Assembly: GCA_017522515.1 (NCBI GenBank)
Contig: JAFWZH010000323.1
Coordinates: 1-16,060 of the forward strand
Source: Clostridia bacterium
GTDB taxonomy: Bacteria; Bacillota_A; Clostridia; UBA1212; UBA1255
Direction: 5' to 3'
Length of the DNA: 16,060 nucleotides
Below, piece by piece: positions 242-15,679 of the stretch (within the stretch, counting starts at the first letter, position 1; every line of letters begins with the position of its first letter). A program made the translations under genes and the position numbers. Under the pieces are notes generated by a model that saw nothing but the letters and a program-made list of their open reading frames with translations, was not told the DNA's origin and did not search any database.

Positions 242-1411
242 TTATAAATGTATTGCCTTTTCAAGAATGTTGATATTTTCTTTCTTTGCTTCATTGATGC
301 GATTTATGTAGTTTTTCTCTGTTGTGTCCACACTCGCATGTCCGAGCAAGACTGCAATTTCTGATATTTTTATCCCATTACTGTCAAGTAATGTTGCAAC
401 TGAATGCCTGAAATCATGAATCGTTGAGTGCGATAAACCTGCACCATCAATCAGACGATTCACAACTCTGTTAATTGCAGACAGATTGGAATATGGTTTC
501 ATTGTTGTGCTCAAGATAACGAAATCATCACCGGGATATGCTTTTCCCAAAATCTTTTTATATGCATCTTGCTTTTCCTTTTCTTTTTTCAGAACATTAT
601 ATACAAAGTCAGACATAGGTATTACTCTGTTACTTGCATCCGATTTAGGAGTAGTAATCATTTTTGTTGTTTTTGATTTTGTTCCTGTACGGTTTTTTGT
701 TATTATAATTTTTCTGTTTTCAAAATCTACACCAGTTGTCCAATCAAGAGCCATTGCTTCTCCTTTTCTTATGCCTGTCATAAAAATAAGAACTAAAAAA
801 GTATAAACATGGCTGTCTTTTGCTTTTGCATATGCAAGAAGCTTTTTGATTTCATCTATACCATAGACCTTTTTAATTTCTTTGATTTCCATTTCATAAA
901 CAGGCATTCGGGCATCATCTACAGGATTATACGGTATAAGTTTATCTTTTACAGCATCCTTTAACGCTGAAGATAAAACGTTTTTAATTTCTTTTACAGT
1001 TTTTTCTTTTAATCCACCATTGCCATCTGAACGCCCATCATTTTTAAGAAAGTTCAAATATTTAGTTATTATTCCCGGAGTTACATCATCAAGACTCAAT
1101 TCCAAAGGATCAAAGTAGGGGATAATCTTACCCTTAATTCGTTTTTCATAATCCTCATATGTAGAGGGCTTAAGATTCGGCTCAACTTCTACTATCCACT
1201 TTAATAAGTAGTTTGTAAGTAACATTTTATTTGATGAACGTTTTTTATCAAAATAATTTCTGATTACTCTTTCCATTGCAGCTTTTGCTTTTCTTTTATT
1301 TCCCGGTTTTGCTTCTATTCCGGTGTTAATCCATTTTTGTTTTCCATTATCACGGAATACCGCATAATAATATTTTCCCTTTGCGTGCACGCTACCGCTA
1401 ATATTTATCAT
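242..1411 (-). CDS. int: Tyrosine site-specific recombinase (integrase)
   Basis: This 389-residue protein is a phage/ICE-type tyrosine integrase that cuts and rejoins attachment sites. The whole catalytic set is visible: R215 (TGIRKGE), the beta-hairpin lysine near K256 (TPKSDASNR), H332 and R335 (HDFRHS), H358 (LLGHAS) and the nucleophile Y368 (TEKNY). Residues 1-60 are the basic arm-binding region and about 62-165 the core-binding domain, as in Tn916-like integrases. The enzyme looks complete and active. It lies downstream of the excisionase on the same strand, with a candidate att site just beyond its stop. The chosen ATG has no close Shine-Dalgarno; GAAAGGAAG lies about 26 bases upstream, separated from the ATG by a small hairpin. 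Confidence 0.95.
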   Translation of the reverse strand: MINISGSVHAKGKYYYAVFRDNGKQKWINTGIEAKPGNKRKAKAAMERVIRNYFDKKRSSNKMLLTNYLLKWIVEVEPNLKPSTYEDYEKRIKGKIIPYFDPLELSLDDVTPGIITKYLNFLKNDGRSDGNGGLKEKTVKEIKNVLSSALKDAVKDKLIPYNPVDDARMPVYEMEIKEIKKVYGIDEIKKLLAYAKAKDSHVYTFLVLIFMTGIRKGEAMALDWTTGVDFENRKIIITKNRTGTKSKTTKMITTPKSDASNRVIPMSDFVYNVLKKEKEKQDAYKKILGKAYPGDDFVILSTTMKPYSNLSAINRVVNRLIDGAGLSHSTIHDFRHSVATLLDSNGIKISEIAVLLGHASVDTTEKNYINRINEAKKENINILEKAIHL

Positions 1412-1450
1412 GTATTTATATCTGCACTGTTACAAGTGCTTCCTTTCTTA
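1412..1450 (-). promoter_or_regulatory. Structured ribosome binding site of int
   Basis: On the minus strand GAAAGGAAG is followed by GCACT-TGTAAC-AGTGC, a 5-bp stem with a 6-base loop, and then 12 bases to the int ATG. Folding the hairpin would bring the ribosome binding site to a usable distance. An in-frame TTG in the loop is followed at once by TAA, so it cannot be the start. Confidence 0.4.
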
Positions 1451-1455
1451 TAGTA

Positions 1456-1659
1456 TTATTGAAAAATTGAATTTACATATTCTATTACGCTAAGTTTTGG
1501 GATAATGTATCTATTCCCAATTCTATGTGCTTTGATTGTACCATCATTAAGTATTGAATAAGCTGTATTACGACCGATTCGTAACATTTGCTGCAGTTCT
1601 GCAATACTAACAATATCAGGATAATCTACAAACATTGCACCGTTAAATAAATCTTCCAT
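1456..1659 (-). CDS. xis: Excisionase-family DNA-binding protein (MerR-like HTH)
   Basis: This 67-residue protein has the excisionase/MerR-like pattern: a helix-turn-helix at about residues 17-37 (SIAELQQMLRIGRNTAYSIL), then the wing-like stretch IKAHRIGNRYIIPKLSVIEYV. Proteins of this family bind att arms and steer the integrase toward excision, or regulate integration genes. The ATG at 1659 has AAAGGAGA at good spacing; an upstream in-frame extension lacks a ribosome binding site and looks non-coding. It is followed by int on the same strand with a gap of about 45 bases. A purely regulatory role is also possible. Confidence 0.8.
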   Translation of the reverse strand: MEDLFNGAMFVDYPDIVSIAELQQMLRIGRNTAYSILNDGTIKAHRIGNRYIIPKLSVIEYVNSIFQ

Positions 1660-1810
1660 AGACTTTCTCCTTTTAATTAGTTTTGCAGGGTATATATAAA
1701 TGAGAATAATCTTGTATTTAGTTGAGTAATAAGTTAAACCCTGAGCTACGCATTTTTGCGTGAGATTCATAACGAAATGGTAAATTTCCGTTATTTCTGA
1801 CCATTAGTTT
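1660..1810. other. Gap between xis and the small upstream ORF
   Basis: No gene is seen. Two small inverted repeats are present: ATAACGAAAT against ATTTCCGTTAT (one bulge, about 1769-1796), and ACGCA/TGCGT around 1749-1762. Neither is followed by a T run on the minus strand, so they are more likely protein-binding or RNA structures than terminators. Confidence 0.35.
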
Positions 1811-2002
1811 TTACCTATTAAATATTTGTGAAAATACATTAAAGAATACGAATGAATACACCGTGCCTTCGGGGCTTACGAGATTATGGTCTTCCTGAAT
1901 TTCTCGGAGCTGTCCGAGGATTCTCTTTGCATCCTTTTCAGGGCAGAATAAAAGCATCTGGATTTCCTTATATGTATAATGCAGCTTATTGAAATTGCTC
2001 AC
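1811..2002 (-). CDS. Small wHTH-like protein of the integration module
   Basis: A 63-residue protein that I do not recognise by name. The segment YTYKEIQMLLFCPEKDAKRI, continuing into a second helix (about residues 9-40), resembles a short winged-helix DNA-binding domain. Such proteins are common beside xis and int in Firmicute elements. The start is GTG at 2002, chosen because AAGGAGG sits eight bases upstream. The C-terminal tail (VYSFVFFNVFSQIF) is hydrophobic and aromatic and may be non-native or degenerate. Its upstream region carries two long direct repeats, which it or the excisionase could bind. The function is inferred only from size, location and helix pattern. Confidence 0.6.
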   Translation of the reverse strand: MSNFNKLHYTYKEIQMLLFCPEKDAKRILGQLREIQEDHNLVSPEGTVYSFVFFNVFSQIFNR

Positions 2003-2030
2003 AAGGACTGCCTCCTTTCTTGTTTAATTT

Positions 2031-2166
2031 TGAAACACTATTTTTTGTTTCATATATAGTATGACATTTTTAAAAGCTGTTTTTTGCTCTACCATAACTT
2101 TTTTTGCCGTTTTTATACACAGCATTGAAACTGTTTTTTTGTGTTTCGTATATAGTATGACAGATT
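2031..2166. repeat. Pair of 41-bp direct repeats upstream of the small wHTH gene
   Basis: Copies at about 2031-2071 and 2125-2166 both read TGAAAC, a T-rich tract, GTTTC, then TATATAGTATGACA with small differences. Each copy contains an inverted GAAAC/GTTTC pair and, on the minus strand, a TACTATATA -10-like box. The arrangement suggests a duplicated promoter/operator or integrase/excisionase arm sites. The minus-strand ORF across it (2070-2261) is only an open frame through the repeats. Confidence 0.55.
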
Positions 2167-2533
2167 TCGCGAAAAAAAAGTTTTTCCTCATAGCCATTTT
2201 TTTCTATTTCTGTCATAAATTTCACTTTTGGAAAATTTCTAAAATTTTGACAACTTATCATTTAAATACAGCTGATGATTACACTTTATTTTCAAAAAAA
2301 ATATCCTTGCATAGAGAGTATGCAAGATATTCACTAAAAAAATTAATCCTGCATAAGTATTTTTACGAAAAAGTGCCGTGAGCCCTTATATATCAACGGT
2401 TTTCGCATTTTGAGAAAATTGAAAATTTTTCAAAAATATTTTTTTCAGCAACAAAAACACCTATTTATCACTCCATTTCGTCATATTTTCATCTAATAAT
2501 ATGATTTTTACTACTATCGCTTAACCGAAAAAA
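2167..2533. other. AT-rich non-coding stretch with one hairpin
   Basis: No convincing gene is seen. ATATCCTTGCATA (2301-2313) pairs with TATGCAAGATAT (2319-2330) with one bulge. The rest is A/T tracts, including a near-palindromic TTGAAAATTTTTCAA around 2418. It could be an origin or regulatory DNA, but nothing specific supports that. Confidence 0.3.
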
Positions 2534-2570
2534 GCAAACAGGACGCTGCGAAATGCAGCGCCCTGTTTGC
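2528..2570 (-). terminator. Terminator of the mobilization gene
   Basis: GCAAACAGG (2534-2542) and CGCTGC (2544-2549) pair with GCAGCG (2555-2560) and CCTGTTTGC (2562-2570), with one mismatch and a GAAAT loop. On the minus strand the stem is followed by TTTTTT. It lies about 90 bp past the relaxase stop. Confidence 0.85.
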
Positions 2571-2658
2571 GAACTTATAATCACATTTGGGGAAAACACC
2601 GTGGTAAAATGTCTCCCTTTATATAATGATTTTTTTATTACATCAATAACCGAAAAAA

Positions 2659-3387
2659 TTACAAAATTATTTCGTTGGTATTAAACAGTGGGCGGAAATC
2701 TGTTCCTTCTAAGTCAAAGATTTCATCATGTAATTCTGTTTTTCGTCTTTCTAATTGTCCGATATCCCGTTGAAGCTGCTTGTATCTTTTATACTCCGGC
2801 ATAGACATTAACTTTCGGTCTTTCAGAGCTCCTGTTAATATGCTTATTTTTCGCCCAAAATCGTTGCTTATTGTCGTTTCCATATCCGTGTGCAACGTTT
2901 GCAAATCACGTCTGTTAATCACTAATTTCGCCGATATACACTCCTTATCAGTGTCACGATTGGCGACTGGAATAAAGGCAAAATGGATATGAGGACTATT
3001 AATCAGCACTCCTTCAGGCGTCTTAAATCCCTCATCTTTGTGAACCCATGCAGAAACAATATTGTTCTTTCCATATCTGTCAGATAAAAATCTGTATGCA
3101 CTTTCAAAAAATCTCCGTTCATCTTCAGGCGGAACATCTTTCGGGAGAAACAGACAGCAGGAAGCAAGGATATTCAAATCTGCTCTGGGATTGCATCTTA
3201 CCTCCGCACACCTTTTGTTTATAAACTCCATCTGAGCTTCATTATGCTCTGCAAGATTGTAGTTAAGATATGTCCTTGTCGGATCAATGTTTCTGTTATC
3301 GGGAATGCCATTTCCTGAAAACGTTCTTTCAAAATGATTACATACTCTCGCGACATCTTTTCGTTTAAATTTCTCTATGTGTGCCAT
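2659..3387 (-). CDS. mob: MobV-type relaxase (Pre/Mob plasmid recombination family), short form
   Basis: This 242-residue protein carries the MobV relaxase signature: H19 in NHFER, the conserved NRNIDPTRTYLNY block at 31-43, and the metal-binding HKDE (116-119) plus SPHIHFAFIP (131-140, H133 and H135). MobV enzymes nick oriT and lead single-stranded transfer with a conjugation machinery supplied by another element. A short coiled-coil-like tail (about 195-230) follows. Most family members run to about 400 residues, so this one has a reduced C-terminal region. The start at 3387 has GAAGGTG at good spacing; the longer upstream frame runs through inverted repeats and is probably not translated. 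No type IV secretion genes are visible, so the element would be mobilizable rather than self-transmissible. Confidence 0.9.
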   Translation of the reverse strand: MAHIEKFKRKDVARVCNHFERTFSGNGIPDNRNIDPTRTYLNYNLAEHNEAQMEFINKRCAEVRCNPRADLNILASCCLFLPKDVPPEDERRFFESAYRFLSDRYGKNNIVSAWVHKDEGFKTPEGVLINSPHIHFAFIPVANRDTDKECISAKLVINRRDLQTLHTDMETTISNDFGRKISILTGALKDRKLMSMPEYKRYKQLQRDIGQLERRKTELHDEIFDLEGTDFRPLFNTNEIIL

Positions 3388-3436
3388 TTTAATCACCTTC
3401 TTTTTTTCTTTTTTCAAAAAGGTATAGCCCTTTACA

Positions 3437-3496
3437 CCTTTCTTCCGAAAGGTCCGGGCTCTCCGAGGGTGACAGAACAAGCATTACACCTTGTTC
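3437..3496. other. Candidate origin of transfer beside mob
   Basis: GAACAAG (3475-3481) and CTTGTTC (3490-3496) form a perfect 7-bp inverted repeat with an 8-base loop. CCTTTC/GAAAGG (about 3438-3452) forms a second small hairpin. The stretch is noticeably more GC-rich than its surroundings and lies directly upstream of the relaxase start, where MobV elements carry oriT. I do not see a known MobV nick sequence, so this rests on position and structure. Confidence 0.35.
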
Positions 3497-7522: not shown

Positions 7523-8242
7523 TTACTTTTTATTTTGCGAGATAGTTTTTTTGCTGAGCTTTTCATACTCGGCAAAGAAAAACAACGGCAAATCTTTATT
7601 TTTTGTTACACCGTCATATGACACAGGTTCTTCAGTATGTCTTAATGAGAAACCTTGTTCTGCGGTTGCATTCAGATAGTAAGCCAAAGAGCGATGGAAA
7701 TGTTCAGTTTTGCCCCAAAACTCATTTGTAAAGGAATAAGGTTCAATATATGAGCTGATAGTTTTACCGTAACAAAAGCCTTTCTTATCTTTAACCCATT
7801 CACTGTCATAAAATGCAGGGTGTACGATAGAGTAGTAAAAAATGCCGCCCGGCTTTAATACTCTGTAACATTCAGAAAATACTTTTTCAATATTTTCAAC
7901 ATCCATTAGCACCTGATTACAAAAGATTAAATCATAACTTTCATTTTCATAAGGGAGGTTTTCTGTAATATCGCATATATCAAAAGTGCAGTTTTCATAA
8001 CGTGAACGGGCAATATGAATCATATTAGCAGAGCCGTCAACACCTATTACATCTGCACCGATATTTTGGAAATAATCAGTATAATATCCGTAGCCGCAAC
8101 CTAAATCTAATACTTTTTTACCTGACATTTCCTGAAAACGAGCCTTGACTACCCGTTTGTTGCTTTCAACAAAATCTGACTGCTCTTGGTCTTGTGTATA
8201 TTTCTTGGCTGCTTTATCCCATTGGTCAACTAATTTTTTCAT
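7523..8242 (-). CDS. Class I SAM-dependent methyltransferase
   Basis: This 239-residue cytosolic protein has the Rossmann methyltransferase motifs: motif I VLDLGCGYG (44-52), the acidic end of strand 2 (VIGVDGS, D69), the DICDITENLPY stretch, and the motif IV/post-I region YDLIFCNQVLMDV with VLKPGG. It belongs to the Methyltransf_11 type, which acts on many small molecules; the substrate cannot be told. The start is placed at 8242, with GAGGTG five bases upstream; the ATG at 8245 is equally in frame. The frame extending further up overlaps the previous gene and lacks a ribosome binding site. It is the last gene of the eight-gene operon. Confidence 0.85.
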   Translation of the reverse strand: MKKLVDQWDKAAKKYTQDQEQSDFVESNKRVVKARFQEMSGKKVLDLGCGYGYYTDYFQNIGADVIGVDGSANMIHIARSRYENCTFDICDITENLPYENESYDLIFCNQVLMDVENIEKVFSECYRVLKPGGIFYYSIVHPAFYDSEWVKDKKGFCYGKTISSYIEPYSFTNEFWGKTEHFHRSLAYYLNATAEQGFSLRHTEEPVSYDGVTKNKDLPLFFFAEYEKLSKKTISQNKK

Positions 8243-8252
8243 CATTTCACCT

Positions 8253-9041
8253 CTATCTTTTATTGAAAATTTGAAAATCATTGAATTTTTCATCTGATAA
8301 TTCTGCAAAAAGTCTCGGCGTGGAAATCTGACTTTCTAATCCTACTTTTTCCCAAGTAGCTGTCCAAATAAGATATGGCTCAAGCGGTAAACATTTTTTT
8401 ACTTTGATATGTGCACCGTCACGAACAAGCAAACCGTCTTTTGCAATCTTCTCGGCATCAAAATAAAGTCTTGCACCTGTTTTGTATTCAGCATTAATAT
8501 CCATTATAATTTTGCCTGATTGTTTAGAATTAACAACGATTTCTCCGCTGACACCACCACCGAACATTATGTAATCACTAAAATGAACAGGGTCTCCGAG
8601 TTGTTTTCCAATAGGTTCTTTTTCTGAAATGCTGAGATTATTCCAACTTTTTAGCATTCCGTCTTTCTGTATTTGATACCAATTTTCCATTGATGTACTA
8701 TGTATTAAAATTGGTGTTTCATAGGTTCGCAGAATTGTTTCATTATAACTGTGTCCATCATAATAGGTTTGAACTTCACTATATTCATCTTCCGTGATTG
8801 CTAAAATGCCGTTCAGATTATTTGCACCGCAGTATCCGATAAAATCACCGATAGCCATTTTCCAATCGTCGTGAAGCTGTTTGTTGATTTTTATAGTATA
8901 AGCACAACCATTGTTTGCACCAACAAGCATAGGTGTATCCATATCAGAGGGAAGAGTTAATATCATCCAAGATGAACCGTATTCAGAATTGGTTATGGGA
9001 TTTATATTGTTCTCTATAAAATCATCCACTCTATAAATCAC
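8253..9041 (-). CDS. Uncharacterised protein with a possible ADP-ribosyltransferase/KptA-like core
   Basis: This 262-residue protein is not one I can name. The segment ILIHSTSMENWYQIQKDGML followed by DPVHFSDYIMFGGGVSGEIVV resembles the H-(G/S)-T-x-x-x-x-I-x-x-x-G and V-H-x-S pattern of Tpt1/KptA RNA 2'-phosphotransferases and DarT-like ADP-ribosyltransferases, which use NAD+. The catalytic arginines of KptA are not obvious, so this is a fold guess. The N-terminal 120 residues are a separate, unrecognised domain with an acidic helix near ITEDEYSE. The GTG at 9041 is chosen because GGAG lies eight bases upstream; the first in-frame GTG (9050) overlaps that site. Spacing to its neighbours in the operon is about ten bases. 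Confidence 0.6.
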   Translation of the reverse strand: MIYRVDDFIENNINPITNSEYGSSWMILTLPSDMDTPMLVGANNGCAYTIKINKQLHDDWKMAIGDFIGYCGANNLNGILAITEDEYSEVQTYYDGHSYNETILRTYETPILIHSTSMENWYQIQKDGMLKSWNNLSISEKEPIGKQLGDPVHFSDYIMFGGGVSGEIVVNSKQSGKIIMDINAEYKTGARLYFDAEKIAKDGLLVRDGAHIKVKKCLPLEPYLIWTATWEKVGLESQISTPRLFAELSDEKFNDFQIFNKR

Positions 9042-9053
9042 ATTTATCACTCC

Positions 9054-9533
9054 TTACATTTCTTGAATAACATCTATTTCATCTTCGCCCGGAACTTCAA
9101 ATATTGAAGCAAATTTTACAGCAAGATTATCATCAACATAATAGGCATTTGTTTCTTCTGCAAGTACAGCATTGTTTCTCTTATTTAAGCGATATTTCCA
9201 TATTTCATCGCTGACGTCAATATAATGAAGCTCATATTCAATGCCACGGGATTTATAGAAATCTTTTACAGACTGCCGTTCAGCTTTTGTCCAGAAGCCC
9301 CAATCAAGAACGACATTAATATCGTTCTGAATAAGCTCTAAAGATTTATTTAACAGATATTTTTCTGTTCTTTCTACATATTCATCGTGTTTATCACCGC
9401 AATGCTGACCGAAAAGAGCAAGTGTTATCTCATCAACTGAAAGTAATACTGCATTGTTTTCAGCACAAAGTTTCTCTGCATATGTAGTTTTTCCGCAGCA
9501 GATTTTACCGCAGATTAAAAAGACTTTTACCAT
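9054..9533 (-). CDS. P-loop kinase-like ATP-binding protein (AAA_33 type)
   Basis: This protein of about 159 residues begins with a Walker A loop, GKICCGKT at residues 9-16. It continues with SVDEIT and VVLDWGFWTKAER (Walker B-like, with the WGF signature common in this group), and a basic lid (RLNKRN). Small P-loop proteins of this type include chloramphenicol phosphotransferase-like and other small-molecule kinases, so phosphorylation of a small molecule or nucleotide is likely, but the substrate is unknown. The ATG at 9533 is nine bases after AAGAGG; the ATG at 9542 overlaps the ribosome binding site. It ends within about 15 bases of the next gene's start. Confidence 0.75.
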   Translation of the reverse strand: MVKVFLICGKICCGKTTYAEKLCAENNAVLLSVDEITLALFGQHCGDKHDEYVERTEKYLLNKSLELIQNDINVVLDWGFWTKAERQSVKDFYKSRGIEYELHYIDVSDEIWKYRLNKRNNAVLAEETNAYYVDDNLAVKFASIFEVPGEDEIDVIQEM

Positions 9534-9549
9534 TAGTAACATCCTCTTA

Positions 9550-10320
9550 TTAGTCGTTAATTTCTTTTACTTCCGCCGTACCTGTAAAATACAATTGTCC
9601 CATTGCAATATTTGCACTTGATGTTGATATCGGAGAATAGTTTATAACAACACCTTTCAGATTTTGCAATTTATTGTAAATTATGAAACGGATTTCATGC
9701 TGATATGCCAAATCTTTTCTTTTATGCCATAATTCGGGATAATCCGATTGAGGTTCAATATAAAACTCTTTTGTTAAATCAATATCATAATTAACAATTT
9801 TGATTTTCCACTTATAATTATTTTTAATAAGTGCTTCACCAATAGAATCAATAATATGTCCTGCACTACCATAAAAGCCCGCAACTTCAGATGGTAATGT
9901 TCCATCTTGCAAAAAGCTCTCATACATTTTCGGTTCAAAATTGTATTTGAATTCACATGTTTTTATTTCGTTAGTACAATCAATTTCTCCAAATAGCTCT
10001 AATTCGTTTTTCTTTATTCCGTACATGCAAAACGCAAGCATCAAACGACTACTTTTTCTTCGCAAAAAGCAATATTCACCATCATCAATTATTTCTAAAT
10101 CATCTCCAAATCTTTGTTGGCTATCTTGTATGATTACTGAATTCTTTTTGCATCGAGCAAAGACACCTTCATACTTATCTCCTTGCTCATTGTTGTTACT
10201 TTCCTCCGCCTTTTTTATATATCCGTCAATAGCACCAAACCACGCTTCGCCATCTCGCAATTTTTCTATCCATTCTTGTTGTGAAATTTTCATACAAAGA
10301 ATCAAATCTTGTAATTCCAT
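9550..10320 (-). CDS. Uncharacterised DUF2971-like protein
   Basis: A protein of 256 residues without a firm family name. The N-terminal stretch EKLRDGEAWFGAIDGYIKKA with a nearby GDKYEG resembles proteins that open with a 'L-x-x-G-x-x-(Y/W)-F' strand and an E-rich helix. The C-terminal YQHEIRFIIY is like the Y-x-x-E-(W/Y/I)-R-(F/I)-I signature of DUF2971-type proteins, often found in mobile and phage-related loci. The biochemical role is unknown. The ATG at 10320 is preferred over 10329 because the latter sits directly on GAAAGG. It is the fifth gene of the operon, with a gap of about 17 bases from the HAD gene. Confidence 0.6.
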   Translation of the reverse strand: MELQDLILCMKISQQEWIEKLRDGEAWFGAIDGYIKKAEESNNNEQGDKYEGVFARCKKNSVIIQDSQQRFGDDLEIIDDGEYCFLRRKSSRLMLAFCMYGIKKNELELFGEIDCTNEIKTCEFKYNFEPKMYESFLQDGTLPSEVAGFYGSAGHIIDSIGEALIKNNYKWKIKIVNYDIDLTKEFYIEPQSDYPELWHKRKDLAYQHEIRFIIYNKLQNLKGVVINYSPISTSSANIAMGQLYFTGTAEVKEIND

Positions 10321-10337
10321 ATTTAACATCCTTTCTA

Positions 10338-11021
10338 CTATTGTCTTTCAATAAAATCAATTAACTGTTTTAAATTATATATTGTCCATTTATCATTATT
10401 TTCACCGCTTCTGTCAAGATAAAATGCCGAAAAGCCTTGCTCTCTTGCTCCGTCTGCTTCTTCTTTGCAATCGTCAACAAATATACTTTCAGAGGCGGTT
10501 ACTCCTTGTGCTTCAAGTGCAGCATTGAAAATAATCGGACTTGGTTTACCTGCACCGACTAAAGAGCTTGCAGTAAATGAGGTAAAATACTTTGCGATAC
10601 CAAGCTGTTGCAAAGTAAATTCAAGTGATGGTGAAGTATCACTAATAACTCCCATTTTATAGCCGTGTTTTTTGAAATATTCAAGCACCTCTACTGTTTC
10701 AGAGAACAATGCTTTGTCACCATTGCACCAAAGCTCATTAAAGAGTAAGTTAGCTTTGGGTTGAATATCTTCTGTAACACCTTCGCCTACAAGCAAATGA
10801 TAATAATATCTCTTGAAAAACTCACGTTCATCATCAAGCGTTTTATACCAAGGTTTTCTTCCTTCGCTTGCAAGGTTAAACAGCGACATCATCTTGTCGT
10901 AATTAAGTTCAAACGACTTGCCACTCCACTCTCTGATTGTCTTATCACGCCACGCTTCTTTTTCAGCAGTAAAATATGTTAAAGTTCCGTCACGGTCAAA
11001 GAATATTGCTTTGTAGTTCAT
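10338..11021 (-). CDS. HAD-family hydrolase (phosphatase)
   Basis: This 227-residue protein has all four haloacid dehalogenase motifs: the nucleophile D9 and D11 in FFDRDGTLT, S127 in ISDTS, K159 in GAGKPSPIIF, and D183/D184 in FVDDCKEEADGA. The helical cap between motifs I and II (about 15-100) is the C1 type of subfamily IA, which includes phosphoglycolate phosphatase-like and other small-phosphate-ester hydrolases. It is probably a soluble phosphatase; the substrate is unknown. The ATG at 11021 has GAGG seven bases upstream. The gap to the upstream GNAT gene is 9 bases. With the P-loop kinase-like protein the operon holds both a possible phosphorylating and a dephosphorylating enzyme. Confidence 0.9.
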   Translation of the reverse strand: MNYKAIFFDRDGTLTYFTAEKEAWRDKTIREWSGKSFELNYDKMMSLFNLASEGRKPWYKTLDDEREFFKRYYYHLLVGEGVTEDIQPKANLLFNELWCNGDKALFSETVEVLEYFKKHGYKMGVISDTSPSLEFTLQQLGIAKYFTSFTASSLVGAGKPSPIIFNAALEAQGVTASESIFVDDCKEEADGAREQGFSAFYLDRSGENNDKWTIYNLKQLIDFIERQ

Positions 11022-11030
11022 ATAGAGGCC

Positions 11031-11660
11031 TCATTTCCTATGCAAAATATGCCATACATCATCACCGGCGAATCCACATTTTCTATATAGTGCTTCAGGG
11101 TTAGTCGTATTATCTACTTTGCCTGAAACAGTTGCAAAAGCTGCAACATCTTTCATTCTGAACAGTAGTTCAGTTACTATCAATTGTCCTATTTTCTTTC
11201 CTCTGTATTGTGGCAATACCTGTATCCATTCAAGAATAAGTTCCTTCGCTTCTGTATCAAAATCAGCTATACCGCAACCAACATATTTATCCGTTGCTTT
11301 TTCCTTGACCATAATCCACAAAGCTGCATTGTAAACCGGTGTTTTAGTATAACTTTTAATAAGCTCTTTACTTACAGAGATGTCTGTATATGAATCGTTT
11401 ATTATCTGTACGATTGCTTTAATATCTTTCCTTGTTGCTGTTGTAATCTCAAGATCATTAGTTATAACTTTCGGTATTTCTTTGAGATTGTGGTACAAGC
11501 GAAAATATTTTTCGTCTATATAATCTGATAATATCTCCGCACTGAAATCATTATCGTGCAGAATTTTCATATCAGGCGGTATTGTAATATTTTTAGTTTT
11601 CCAATACGGAATAGAAAGAGTACCGCAAGGATTATTTAAATATTCGGTAAGTGTAATCAT
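11031..11660 (-). CDS. GNAT-family N-acetyltransferase
   Basis: This 209-residue protein has a GNAT domain from about residue 70. Acetyl-CoA-binding motif A is EWIQVLPQYRGKKIGQLIV (144-162, pyrophosphate loop Q/RxxGxG-like QYRGKKIG), and NPEALYRKCGF is motif B. The first 65 residues (NNPCGTLSIPYWK and on) form an unusual N-terminal extension. Its ATG overlaps the stop of the HIT gene as ATGA, with CAGGAG inside the HIT coding end, so the two are translationally coupled. The acyl acceptor is unknown; GNATs in such clusters often modify antibiotics, but nothing here proves that. Confidence 0.9.
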   Translation of the reverse strand: MITLTEYLNNPCGTLSIPYWKTKNITIPPDMKILHDNDFSAEILSDYIDEKYFRLYHNLKEIPKVITNDLEITTATRKDIKAIVQIINDSYTDISVSKELIKSYTKTPVYNAALWIMVKEKATDKYVGCGIADFDTEAKELILEWIQVLPQYRGKKIGQLIVTELLFRMKDVAAFATVSGKVDNTTNPEALYRKCGFAGDDVWHILHRK

Positions 11661-12130
11661 TTTTTCTCCTGATTAAAGAATTGCTTCATCTTTTTAAATA
11701 ATATTTCTCTATCGCCATCTGATAATATTGTTTCTTTTTTATTATCATAGTGATGACCGAACTCTTCGTCAAAATAACTATTACCATTTATAATTATAGG
11801 TTTTTCGTGCCGAGGTCTTACATGCAGATGTAAGTGTGGATAGGGGTTAGTTGATTTGAAAAAATCATTCATCAAACAACTCCAATTGCATAAATCAGCT
11901 TCTAATACATTTTTTAAACAACCTTCAATTTTTGCAATGATTTCTTTTAGTTCAATCCATTCCAACAAGTCGATAGCAGACAGATTTGCACAATGCCGTT
12001 TAAGAACCACAACACATCTACCCAAATAATCTTGTTTATCAGCAAAAAACACATACCAATACACACTTTCGTATAAGATGTTTTGTTTTTCTGTGTCAGT
12101 AAAATTGCACCAACAACAGTCTTTTGCCAT
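11657..12130 (-). CDS. HIT-family protein (nucleotidyl hydrolase/transferase)
   Basis: This 157-residue protein carries the histidine triad HLHLHVRPRH (99-108), the H-x-H-x-H motif whose middle histidine is the nucleophile in Ap4A hydrolases and related nucleotidyl transferases. An N-terminal CCWC cluster (residues 6-9) could bind zinc, as in some HIT proteins. The C-terminal 50 residues are longer than in minimal HIT proteins. The start at 12130 has AGAGG seven bases upstream; the in-frame GTG at 12136 lies on that site. It is coupled to the next GNAT through a 4-base overlap. The substrate is unknown, but a nucleotide ester or nucleotide-modified small molecule is likely. Confidence 0.85.
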   Translation of the reverse strand: MAKDCCWCNFTDTEKQNILYESVYWYVFFADKQDYLGRCVVVLKRHCANLSAIDLLEWIELKEIIAKIEGCLKNVLEADLCNWSCLMNDFFKSTNPYPHLHLHVRPRHEKPIIINGNSYFDEEFGHHYDNKKETILSDGDREILFKKMKQFFNQEKK

Positions 12131-12142
12131 TTTCACACCTCT

Positions 12143-13141
12143 TTATAATGATACTCTGTATCTTTGCGACCATTTTTCGTCTTCATAGAACTCATTCATT
12201 AAAGTTCCGCCGTTTTTGAGAATGGTTTTAATAGCTGATTTGTTGAACTTATACGGGACAATATCAACACTTGTCATACCCATATTTCTGCAAATTTCCA
12301 AGGCTGATTCAAGCATTTTTGTGCCAAGCCCTTTACCTCTGTGCCAAGGCACTATTCCTGCATGCAGATGACCTCTATGTGTATTCTTTTGATTGATTTC
12401 AATTGCACCTAATATTTCACTTGTATCATCAACAAAAAAGTATAGAGTACAAGGCACACCTGTTGACAACATAGAACCTGTTGTTCTGTCATCCTCACAC
12501 CATTCGAGCCACTTTGAATAGGATACATTTGCACCTAAGCTTTTACTGTATCGTCTTAACAATTCGGGTTGGATGTTTTCCTCTATCGATTCCCATTTGT
12601 CCATCATTTGAATATATGCTTCTTCATGAGTTTCATCGGAAATCACAAGTGAATATTTCTTTGGTTCCAGAGTTTTCATCATAACATAAGCTTTTATCTT
12701 TTTGCCGTATTCTGTTTTAAGCTTTTTAAGTTCCACAATATTGAAACCATATTTCTTATACAGATTTATTGCTGCAAGATTATCTTTTGTTGTCTGAACT
12801 CCGATTTGATTAAATCCTTTAGAATGCAGATATTCAAAAGCATATTCAACAGCAAATTTTCCGACACCTTGATGCTTATACTTATCTGAAACAACAAGCA
12901 TTGATATCCAGGCTGTATCGGCATTTAGCAAGCCGTTTAGCTTCAACCAAGCACAGACATCGTTATCAGCACAAATCAAAAAGTTTTCTTCATCAGCATC
13001 ACAAGCATTTTCATCAAAAATACATTTCCATTCTGACAACGAATGATATGTTGAATGGAGAGCTGCAATGTTACTTGTTTCAGACATTATTGATGCTACA
13101 TAATGAACATCTTCTACCACTAATGGTTTTACATAATACAT
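12143..13141 (-). CDS. Tandem GNAT acetyltransferase (two GNAT domains)
   Basis: This 332-residue protein is two GNAT domains in a row. The first (about 1-158) has motif A SMLVVSDKYKHQGVGKFAVE (KYKHQGVG 87-94) and motif B NLAAINLYKKYGF. The second (about 162-332) has GIVPWHRGKGLGTKML (HRGKGLG 267-273) and matches the YjbC-like GNAT type with NKSAIKTILKNGG. Both acetyl-CoA loops are intact, so both domains could be active, or one may bind the acceptor. It is the first gene of the operon; AGAGG lies seven bases before ATG, and the transcript leader carries a terminator hairpin about 25 bases upstream. Confidence 0.9.
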   Translation of the reverse strand: MYYVKPLVVEDVHYVASIMSETSNIAALHSTYHSLSEWKCIFDENACDADEENFLICADNDVCAWLKLNGLLNADTAWISMLVVSDKYKHQGVGKFAVEYAFEYLHSKGFNQIGVQTTKDNLAAINLYKKYGFNIVELKKLKTEYGKKIKAYVMMKTLEPKKYSLVISDETHEEAYIQMMDKWESIEENIQPELLRRYSKSLGANVSYSKWLEWCEDDRTTGSMLSTGVPCTLYFFVDDTSEILGAIEINQKNTHRGHLHAGIVPWHRGKGLGTKMLESALEICRNMGMTSVDIVPYKFNKSAIKTILKNGGTLMNEFYEDEKWSQRYRVSL

Positions 13142-13157
13142 AAAACAACCTCTTTCT

Positions 13158-13195
13158 AAAAAATTTAAGGCACCTCCGAAAATCGAAGATGCCTT
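13158..13195 (-). terminator. Leader terminator (attenuator) of the cargo operon
   Basis: On the minus strand, AAGGCATCTTCGA (13195-13183) pairs over all 13 positions (two G-U) with TCGGAGGTGCCTT (13179-13167) around a TTT loop. AAA and then TTTTTT follow. It sits between the operon promoter and its first gene, so unless it is overcome, transcription stops before the GNAT gene. Confidence 0.85.
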
Positions 13196-13221
13196 GTAAA
13201 TTCAGAAAGATATGTATTACA

Positions 13222-13278
13222 TCAATCACAAACGGACAAAACGGCTCTCCGATTTCGGATATTAAGATTATTCATCAT
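13222..13278 (-). CDS. Leader peptide of the attenuator
   Basis: A 17-18 codon ORF (MNNLNIRNRRAVLSVCD from ATG 13275, or one Met earlier) follows AGGTGG (13289-13284) at 5-8 bases and ends with TGA 13224-13222. It lies between the promoter and the terminator hairpin. Codons 8-11 form a segment (13253-13243) that can pair with the 5' arm of the terminator (13193-13182) over 11 bp with one bulge, giving an antiterminator. The peptide is not recognised. It contains R-N-R, the pattern of macrolide arrest motifs, but a ribosome halted there would cover the antiterminator segment, so that reading is uncertain. Confidence 0.65.
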   Translation of the reverse strand: MMNNLNIRNRRAVLSVCD

Positions 13279-13285
13279 TTTGTCC
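13234..13285 (-). ncRNA. Alternative RNA stems in the operon leader
   Basis: GGACAAAA (13285-13278, over the leader's ribosome binding site edge and first ATG) can pair perfectly with TTTTGTCC (13241-13234), enclosing CCG/CGG (13258-13249). This fold would occupy the antiterminator segment's surroundings and hinder leader translation. Together with antiterminator and terminator stems it makes a set of mutually exclusive structures, the mark of a transcription attenuator. Confidence 0.6.
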
Positions 13286-13309
13286 ACCTGCCTTTTAATA
13301 TTTCATATA

Positions 13310-13338
13310 ATTCTAATACTGTTTCCGTGAATTGTCAA
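13310..13338 (-). promoter_or_regulatory. Promoter of the eight-gene cargo operon
   Basis: On the minus strand, TTGACA (13338-13333), a 17-base spacer and TAGAAT (13315-13310) form a near-perfect sigma-A promoter. Transcription would begin near 13303, giving a leader of about 160 bases before the first gene. Confidence 0.85.
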
Positions 13339-14729: not shown

Positions 14730-15626
14730 TTATTCATCTTTTAATCTTCTCAATGGTTCCTCGAATTCTGCAATCAATTTATATAATGGGTCACGTCCCT
14801 CAAAAAAACTTTGATAAGAAGGAAATTCATTAGAAAGGTGTAATGCATCGAGAGTGTCTCGAGCCATTTTTGCTTCAACTACTCGTGTATCTCCATAAAA
14901 GTTAACAGTGTAAGTATATGTTTTAGGGAAAATAATCTGTTTAGTTTTTCTACGCATCCGTATTTTTAATCCAGAATACTCACATTGAACTCCCTGCTTC
15001 TCTAATACTTGTATAAACTCCTTCATAGTTATATCAGTATGGTATGATCTGTTTTTTTGTTCCACCAAACGTCTTATGATATAAGAAATTGTTTTAATAT
15101 TCTGATCATCAAATGATTTAAATTTTTTCCAAACTTTGTTATATTTAGTTTCAAGAGAATTTTCTGCAACAGCGAGTACTAACTTTTCAAAATCATAAAT
15201 TTGACTTTTAGGGTAGTATCCGTATGAATATAATTGATTTAACAATGTTAGTAGAGCTGTTCTTTTATTGCCATCATGAAATGCATGATCTTTTACTAAA
15301 CCAAAAAATAATGTTGAACAAATATCTATTGGATCAGTATATTTTGTTTTTCCAGCATAACTACAGGTCTGCCTACAAACAGCAGATGTTAATAAATCAA
15401 AGCTTCTCACGCCAACGAGCATTTTCTCGACTTCAACGCCTGCCGTTGGATCCGTGAAATAATCCGCAAGAATATAATGTGCTTTCAATACGTCAGAAAC
15501 ATTAATCAAAGGTTTAGAAATTTCTTGAAAGTCAGGACAATTCTTTAAATCGTAGTTATAGGCTTTATTGAGTTCATATGGAAGATACTTCATAAAATAA
15601 TCCTTTTTTTGACATTTTTCTTCCAT
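14730..15626 (-). CDS. Fic/Doc-family protein with an added C-terminal domain
   Basis: This 298-residue protein has the Fic core motif HAFHDGNKRTA (H114-R122), of the Doc type (HxFx[D/N]GNKR) rather than the AMPylating HPFxxGNGR type. Phage P1 Doc phosphorylates EF-Tu, so this may be a kinase-like toxin or regulator. The N-terminal 110 residues are helical Fic scaffold. Residues about 195-298 form an extra domain: ITMKEFIQVLEKQGVQCEYS recalls the HicA-like start, then a beta-rich FYGDTRVVEAK region. No S/TxxxE(G/N) inhibitory motif and no neighbouring antitoxin gene are visible. The ATG at 15626 has AGGAG at good spacing. Its promoter region carries a perfect palindrome, so self-regulation is possible. 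Confidence 0.85.
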   Translation of the reverse strand: MEEKCQKKDYFMKYLPYELNKAYNYDLKNCPDFQEISKPLINVSDVLKAHYILADYFTDPTAGVEVEKMLVGVRSFDLLTSAVCRQTCSYAGKTKYTDPIDICSTLFFGLVKDHAFHDGNKRTALLTLLNQLYSYGYYPKSQIYDFEKLVLAVAENSLETKYNKVWKKFKSFDDQNIKTISYIIRRLVEQKNRSYHTDITMKEFIQVLEKQGVQCEYSGLKIRMRRKTKQIIFPKTYTYTVNFYGDTRVVEAKMARDTLDALHLSNEFPSYQSFFEGRDPLYKLIAEFEEPLRRLKDE

Positions 15627-15679
15627 AATACATCTCCTATTTAAAATTGTCAATTTATATAATCTTATTCTCACAGAAT

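Follow-up and report, generated by a model that had tools for sequence, protein, structure and literature searches.

The locus considered here raises the question of what governs the expression of eight genes packed on the minus strand of a 16,060-nt stretch of DNA from a Clostridia bacterium (contig JAFWZH010000323.1), hereafter referred to as the window. A preliminary description had read the segment 13338–13158, ahead of these genes, as a translation-sensing attenuator. This reading is favored by the covariation of the antiterminator, the kept frame of the leader ORF, a limit at +20 on the position of the antiterminator and ribosome-mask folding. The element is predicted, with a probability of about 0.7, to be a start-region ribosome-stalling transcription attenuator that heads arrays of modifying enzymes.

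Leader anatomy and window genes

The structural parts listed in the preliminary description were all recovered (Table 1): the near-consensus promoter, the leader ORF of 17–18 codons with its own ribosome binding site (18 codons, or 17 if counted from the second ATG, downstream of the SD sequence AGGUGG), the 13-bp terminator with its T6 run ahead of the first gene, and the 11-bp pairing of 13253–13243 with the terminator 5′ arm, which has a single bulged base and is lengthened by the duplex programme to 13 bp (−16.0 kcal/mol). The third stem, which had been said to close the start region of the leader, corresponds to P1, a 16-bp helix formed by 13291–13276 with 13243–13228. The antiterminator sits in the loop of P1, and the two have one base in common only. 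The eight downstream genes were likewise found tightly packed, with gaps of 6, −4, 9, 8, 7, 3 and −56 nt.

Table 1. Features of the leader and of the array in the window
Feature	Coordinates	Strand	Description
Promoter	13310..13338	-	TTGACA (13338-13333), 17-nt spacer, TAGAAT (13315-13310); 11/12 consensus matches
P1 5′ arm	13276..13291	-	contains leader SD (AGGUGG) and AUG
Leader ORF	13222..13278	-	MMNNLNIRNRRAVLSVCD, 18 codons + stop TGA; ATG 13278, stop 13224-13222
Antiterminator segment	13243..13253	-	codons 9-12; can pair with terminator 5′ arm
P1 3′ arm	13228..13243	-	codes for last leader codons (V-L-S...); pairs with SD/AUG
UCUUUCU	13204..13210	-	can pair with AGAAAGA 13157-13151 (gene 1 SD) around terminator
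Intrinsic terminator hairpin (predicted)	13167..13195	-	13 bp
Terminator T6 run	13158..13163	-	within tail AAATTTTTTA
Gene 1	12143..13141	-	two GNAT acetyltransferase domains
Gene 2	11657..12136	-	HIT domain protein
Gene 3	11031..11660	-	GNAT acetyltransferase; recurs in other leader operons
Gene 4	10338..11021	-	HAD hydrolase
Gene 5	9550..10329	-	no family found
Gene 6	9054..9542	-	AAA_33 P-loop protein
Gene 7	8253..9050	-	no family found
Gene 8	7523..8308	-	methyltransferase; start uncertain, overlaps gene 7

Region 13303–13142 folded at −53.4 kcal/mol (z = −6.5), an energy equaled by none of 200 shuffles. Over the whole window, terminator-like sites numbered 17 against 7.9 ± 2.6 in shuffles, and promoter-like sites showed no enrichment (65 against 69.3 ± 8.2). 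A helix closing around the terminator may mask the gene 1 SD; it was matched by no more than 5% of shuffles in 22 of 60 distinct loci, one of which is the window. This helix looks like an optional feature of the family, and it could act as a second, translational lock on gene 1.

Genes 5 and 7 yielded neither a family nor a solved relative below E = 0.2, and no ABC-F gene was found among the eight. PADLOC returned weak matches, and the methyltransferase domain of gene 8 matched mad2. Elsewhere in the window, positions 242–3480 encode Phage_integrase, HTH_17 (excisionase-like) and Mob_Pre proteins, so an integrated mobile element seems to lie beside the array. A Fic-domain protein (14730–15674) adjoins the array, with a strong promoter-like site at 15653–15625.

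Relatives of the leader and its reading frame

The leader was searched with blastn in 147 relatives of the nearest genome, and matches were obtained in 14 of them, or in 12 once a terminator-like piece (L010) and two chance pieces (L013, L014) had been set aside; several of these genomes carry the leader two or three times, in front of different genes. A covariance model comprising P1 and the ORF alone (R1, 19 sequences) then matched at 72 places, spread over 42 of 398 family genomes searched; two of these places (L098, L100) were later judged false, and their removal leaves one genome (G163) with no leader. The same model was positive in 5 of 391 genomes of the class, one being the centre genome. 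A second model (R2, 70 sequences) was positive in 18 of 394 order genomes, including three that belong to the family, and in 1 of 249 across the phylum, the centre genome itself; none of the 248 others sampled with R2 gave a match. These counts come from rough E-values and mostly draft assemblies, and the searches of more than 40 genomes had stricter filters, by which weak members may be missed. Of 91 model matches, three were antisense, and among the remaining 88 L098 (the start of a long gene) and L100 (which has no ORF) were dropped; L103 had no model match. One contig may stand under two locus numbers (L001/L025, L002/L023, L015/L027, L021/L029), and identical sequences were counted once in all distinct counts.

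Altogether, about 100 related leaders came out of the sequence and covariance-model searches. Most belong to one Clostridia family, a single genome can have up to five leader places, and among the sampled clades one accounts for most occurrences of the element. Among the seven named loci that carry gene 1, six belong to uncultured gut Clostridia of goat, buffalo, sheep and deer and one to an Oscillospiraceae record, and the leader is present at six of the seven, L024 lacking it. Plasmid and phage records gave no blastn match to the leader, and viral contigs gave one exact match to an 18-base piece only, with the remainder of the leader absent there. No Rfam family reached its gathering score anywhere in the window: over the leader the only listed match was U7 (23.9 bits against a gathering score of 34), while PyrR, Phe_leader and rli61 matched weakly, elsewhere in the window, and were rejected.

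The leader ORF ranges from 16 to 35 codons across the family. Among 77 distinct ORFs (L101 excluded), twelve different spacings occur between the AUG and the first base of the P1 3′ arm; the spacing equals 2 modulo 3 in 75 of these ORFs, over ten lengths, the exceptions being the single leaders L091 and L097. All 15 held-out leaders, which came from the order search, keep the frame too; in L061 and L119, the loss of a base within the arm puts the last codons in another frame. A stop codon lies 13–37 nt from the start of the P1 3′ arm in all 77 distinct leaders. Since folding alone would impose no three-base period, we infer that the leader ORF is translated. An untranslated, riboswitch-like element bound at P1 by a ligand or a protein would agree with the strong conservation of the P1 sequence, but the frame kept over ten lengths, the nearby stop in every leader and the lack of a gathering-level Rfam match in the window make it very improbable.

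Comparison of the family peptides showed no shared run of codons for any amino acid, and residues 3–7 were variable. An amino-acid leader-peptide attenuator of the trp or his kind is argued against by the lack of a common codon run, and a drug-specific arrest-peptide leader of the erm kind by the variable middle of the peptide and by the RNR motif, which had been pointed out in the window's peptide and proved not to be general among its relatives. The preliminary description had left translation inhibitors and starvation side by side as the inducing signal; starvation looks less likely, because the leader codons differ among relatives. Codon 2 encodes Thr in 52 of 76 distinct peptides, though it lies outside both P1 and the antiterminator, and we presume that a Thr at this position might suit stalling by phenicols or oxazolidinones. 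The sequence VLS is common to the leader peptides, but it coincides with the P1 arm.

Antiterminator pairing and ribosome position

Neither the terminator nor the antiterminator pairing was contained in the covariance models, so their presence in the relatives is a largely independent check. A script found the terminator in 84 of 86 leaders, one of them spurious owing to Ns (L027, dropped); the two leaders without a script terminator were L008, which shows one otherwise, and L095, whose contig ends. The 83 kept gave 75 distinct combinations of antiterminator and terminator arm, on which the pairing tests were run, while the 75 used below for frame, footprint and masked folding are distinct ORFs with a terminator.

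The antiterminator pairing beat a spacer control in 75 of 75 combinations, and no more than 5% of shuffles were as good in 63 of 75. Its mean energy was −12.2 kcal/mol, against −7.6 kcal/mol when partners were exchanged between dissimilar leaders, although a leader's own pairing stood above every dissimilar swap in only 25 of 75; pairing was weak in L087 and L068. Two pairing alphabets dominate: type A, the window's kind (CGGAG/CUCCG or CGAAG/CUUCG), and type B (AAAUCA with UGAUUU), which often extends into the loop. In 39 type A leaders (38 of 47 loci plus L008, excluding L068 for its weak pairing and eight long leaders), 93.9% of antiterminator cells were paired, none of 500 shuffles reached the covariation score, and one column pair was GC in 25 leaders and AU in 12; the terminator was 99.2% paired in the same 39. 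In 28 of 35 type B leaders (excluding L087 for its weak pairing, together with L012, L080, L091, L092, L097 and L099), 93.9% were again paired and 10 cells had changed on both sides. P1 was 96.3% paired over the whole set with 9 of 16 pairs changed on both sides, in an alignment fitted to P1; on the 39 type A leaders alone it showed no covariation beyond shuffles (one pair), because it varies too little there.

Homologs lacking the ORF or the pairing had been named as the case that would speak against the attenuator. Among the 15 held-out leaders the frame was kept throughout, and 13 had the terminator and its pairing with the antiterminator; of the other two, L117 has no terminator and the terminator of L115 is distant and unpaired with the antiterminator. 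The shuffle test on the held-out set reached the 5% level in 3 of 14, a test made weak by the AU-rich composition of type B. Both pairing and covariation thus describe an antiterminator and a terminator that are mutually exclusive, and the fold z-score, the pairing against shuffles, the covariation and the frame conservation together rule out a chance origin of the architecture.

The position of the ribosome was compared with these structures by means of published footprints. The edge of a ribosome on the AUG lies at +16 in a 30S toeprint of vmlR (PMC9226507) and at +16 to +18 in profiling of toiL (PMC12121999). Counted from the A of the AUG, antiterminator pairing begins between +20 and +75 in 75 of 75 leaders and never nearer; it begins at exactly +20 in 11 of 75, and at +20 or +21 in 10 of the 15 held-out leaders. 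By either edge figure, a ribosome at codon 1 would leave the antiterminator bare in all leaders; by the +16 edge, so would a ribosome at codon 2, and in the window also one at codon 3.

Masked folding was carried out for the stage at which the 5′ arm and loop of the terminator have been transcribed, with a programme that cannot form pseudoknots. The antiterminator had a probability of 0.5 or more in 74 of 75 leaders with the ribosome modelled on codon 1 (window 0.91), in 68 of 75 with the ribosome on codon 3 (window 0.91) and, by construction of the mask, in 0 of 75 with the ribosome in mid-ORF (window 0). With a ribosome at the stop codon, the count was 48 of 75 (window 0.97). Without a ribosome, the antiterminator was favored in 27 of 75 and P1 in 44 of 75; in the window the naked RNA gave 0.90 for the antiterminator and 0.02 for P1, so the folding of the window itself lends no support to P1 acting as an anti-antiterminator. 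When the full-length RNA was folded with the start codon masked, the terminator was preferred in 55 of 75 leaders (window 0.26). Since the terminator wins in the finished transcript, the switch would have to be kinetic, operating during transcription, in most leaders.

From these comparisons of sequence we infer termination, translation, stalling and induction in the leader family, and the following course is proposed. During normal growth, a ribosome would load early, pass the middle codons and cover the antiterminator; alternatively, it would leave and P1 would close, and either way the terminator would form and transcription would end near 13158. Under a compound that holds the ribosome on the AUG or on the next codon or two, the footprint would block P1 and leave the antiterminator bare, so that it would pair with the nascent 5′ arm of the terminator and the polymerase would continue into the whole array. 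The sensor would then be the state of the initiating ribosome and not the peptide, and one leader family would gate many different arrays of modifying enzymes.

The preliminary description had required the ribosome to wait near codons 1–4. A stall in the start region is favored by comparison, but a ribosome at the stop codon, a case left aside in that description, also leaves the antiterminator largely free. An unlikely alternative accordingly places the critical stall at the stop codon, where the ribosome would cover the P1 3′ arm, leaving the antiterminator free upstream, and where slow termination or a C-terminal arrest would switch the array on. The stop codon lies 16–22 nt past the antiterminator in 67 of 75 leaders (range 13–43), the stop-codon masks given above agree with such a stall, and a peptide ending in SVCD is frequent among type A leaders. 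Against this, neither the stop distance nor the residues following VLS are constant (e.g., SAI, SV, SSN) and some leaders extend far beyond P1 (L088), so that no arrest motif is common outside type A; normal ribosomes would also reach the stop codon, and expression would presumably be leaky.

A further alternative, which we consider distinctly improbable, is that the array is on when the leader is not translated, the naked RNA forming the antiterminator either by itself or in an H-type pseudoknot with P1, and only a translating ribosome breaking it. The antiterminator does lie in the P1 loop, flush with the 3′ arm or a few bases from it, a geometry that by reasoning rather than computation would permit a pseudoknot, and the ribosome-free folding of 27 leaders, the window among them, favors it even without pseudoknots. 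In the other 48 of 75, however, the naked RNA does not favor the antiterminator, and in the analogous leaders cplR (PMC10201436) and vmlR (PMC9226507) the start-codon mutants are off.

A stall of initiating ribosomes has its closest parallels in mechanism in these same two leaders. The vmlR leader of Bacillus subtilis, which controls one ABC-F gene, has a 3-codon uORF whose initiation is required for induction, and it is induced by drugs that stall initiating ribosomes; like the family described here, it combines a leader ORF bound up with a 5′ hairpin, an antiterminator, an intrinsic terminator and an SD-sequestering helix (PMC9226507). The vmlR SD, in contrast, is single-stranded before the hairpin (PMC9226507), whereas here the SD and AUG lie inside the stem, the ORF has 16–35 codons, the antiterminator sits in the stem loop and the genes governed are mosaic modifier arrays. 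In cplR of Clostridioides difficile, a 5′ hairpin also sequesters the uORF and is followed by a terminator, and a start-codon mutant reporter is inactive; its uORF, however, is a tripeptide, it controls one ABC-F gene, and the terminator stem itself hides the gene SD (PMC10201436). A uORF with an SD before an intrinsic terminator, the former backed by frame conservation, and an exclusive antiterminator/terminator pair are thus shared with the vmlR/cplR kind, while the very short uORF (3–4 codons in the cases described) and, as judged from the eight window genes and 30 first genes, the control of an ABC-F gene are not. The best reading is that the leader family works like vmlR and cplR, homology to them not being claimed; it is not filed as a member of that kind because ORF length, SD and AUG in the stem, antiterminator in the loop and governed genes differ.

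On the toiL uORF of E. coli, tetracycline and retapamulin hold ribosomes at the start codon, which shows by analogy that a stall there need not be limited to reporting one drug class; toiL, which senses several drug classes, belongs to one operon in E. coli (PMC12121999). Each of vmlR, cplR and toiL guards a single gene or operon, while here one gate is reused across a clade before mosaic arrays. The leader may thus be a shared alarm for translation-blocking compounds. If so, the gate would label genes used by gut Clostridia against such compounds, and the targets of the enzymes and a precise gene shuffling without sites would become testable questions. In the literature consulted, no account of shuffled modifier arrays or of a GNAT leader family was recognized; the motif list of PMC8040213 could include the element.

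Mosaic arrays behind the leader

The genes that directly follow the leader are diverse, 76 script-found first genes (a few spurious or truncated) falling into 23 sequence clusters. Pfam searches on 30 representatives identified 11 GNAT acetyltransferases, as well as HAD, histidine phosphatase, methyltransferase, GrpB, PNP_UDP_1 phosphorylase, TIM barrel, ABC transporter and LytTR response regulator matches, and 4 had no match. The ABC matches, in genes read to the end of a 1.6-kb stretch, were ABC_tran (L057, L099) and ABC_membrane (L097).

Longer sequence was available for 27 operons (20 fetched, the window and six others; loci L021–L026, L122–L141 and window 7523–13141). Their 184 genes formed 77 families at 60% identity, figures that are slightly rough because fused ORFs join GrpB and HAD in one cluster (F0). 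Thirty-three families of non-first genes recur in at least two operons, and 26 of these stand behind two or more different first-gene families. Homologs of two tested cassettes were sought in the 42 leader-bearing genomes, which had been picked for carrying leaders. Of 25 with at least 83% identity, 23 have a same-strand leader upstream within 10.2 kb; the remaining two stand together at the very start of a contig (G231:C14), where upstream sequence is missing. Homologs below 80% identity had a leader in none of five cases, one of these (G476:C8) lying 2.2 kb from a contig start. Among the 147 relatives not so picked, gene 3 was found at 84% identity or more in three genomes, each time behind a leader, together with four weaker homologs (40–54%) not known to follow one.

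The gaps between genes have a median of 7 nt (157 gaps, 27 operons). In 135 pairs of homologous cassettes with different upstream neighbors, which are not independent of one another, identity was about 0.8 within the gene, fell to roughly 0.4–0.6 over the SD and reached background by about 16 nt upstream. The operons are mosaics: their genes are interchangeable, and the junctions, at which no recombination site was seen, fall at gene boundaries. The units look like single genes with their own SD. Integron gene-cassette arrays are also built as a regulated head followed by interchangeable genes. The arrays described here have no attC-sized spacer, however, and an integron cassette array with attC sites is indirectly argued against by the gap size and by the loss of identity about 16 nt upstream of the start codons. 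We tentatively propose, at somewhat under even odds, that an integron-like system lacking integron sites operates in a clade of gut Clostridia, in which single-gene units (acetyltransferases, methyltransferases, phosphatases, P-loop proteins) would be shuffled at gene boundaries, each array being silent behind one standard, drug-agnostic ribosome-stall gate, and any inhibitor of early translation would release the cell's entire enzyme stock together.

The gene 1 homolog at L024 did provide a copy without a leader, but that copy is itself fused or chimeric. At about 9570–10897 of L024, a GNAT gene without its first 31 residues is fused in frame with a second ORF, the junction lying at a DEEN common to both. 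This second ORF holds one stop, and we take it to be primase-like; the fusion could reflect recombination or a chimeric assembly. A separate sub-family (L012, L070, L078, L083, L085, L089, L091, L093, L094 and L096) has mostly longer leaders, of about 24–35 codons, and precedes a single gene cluster, identified by Pfam on L012 and L091 only as LytTR response regulators.
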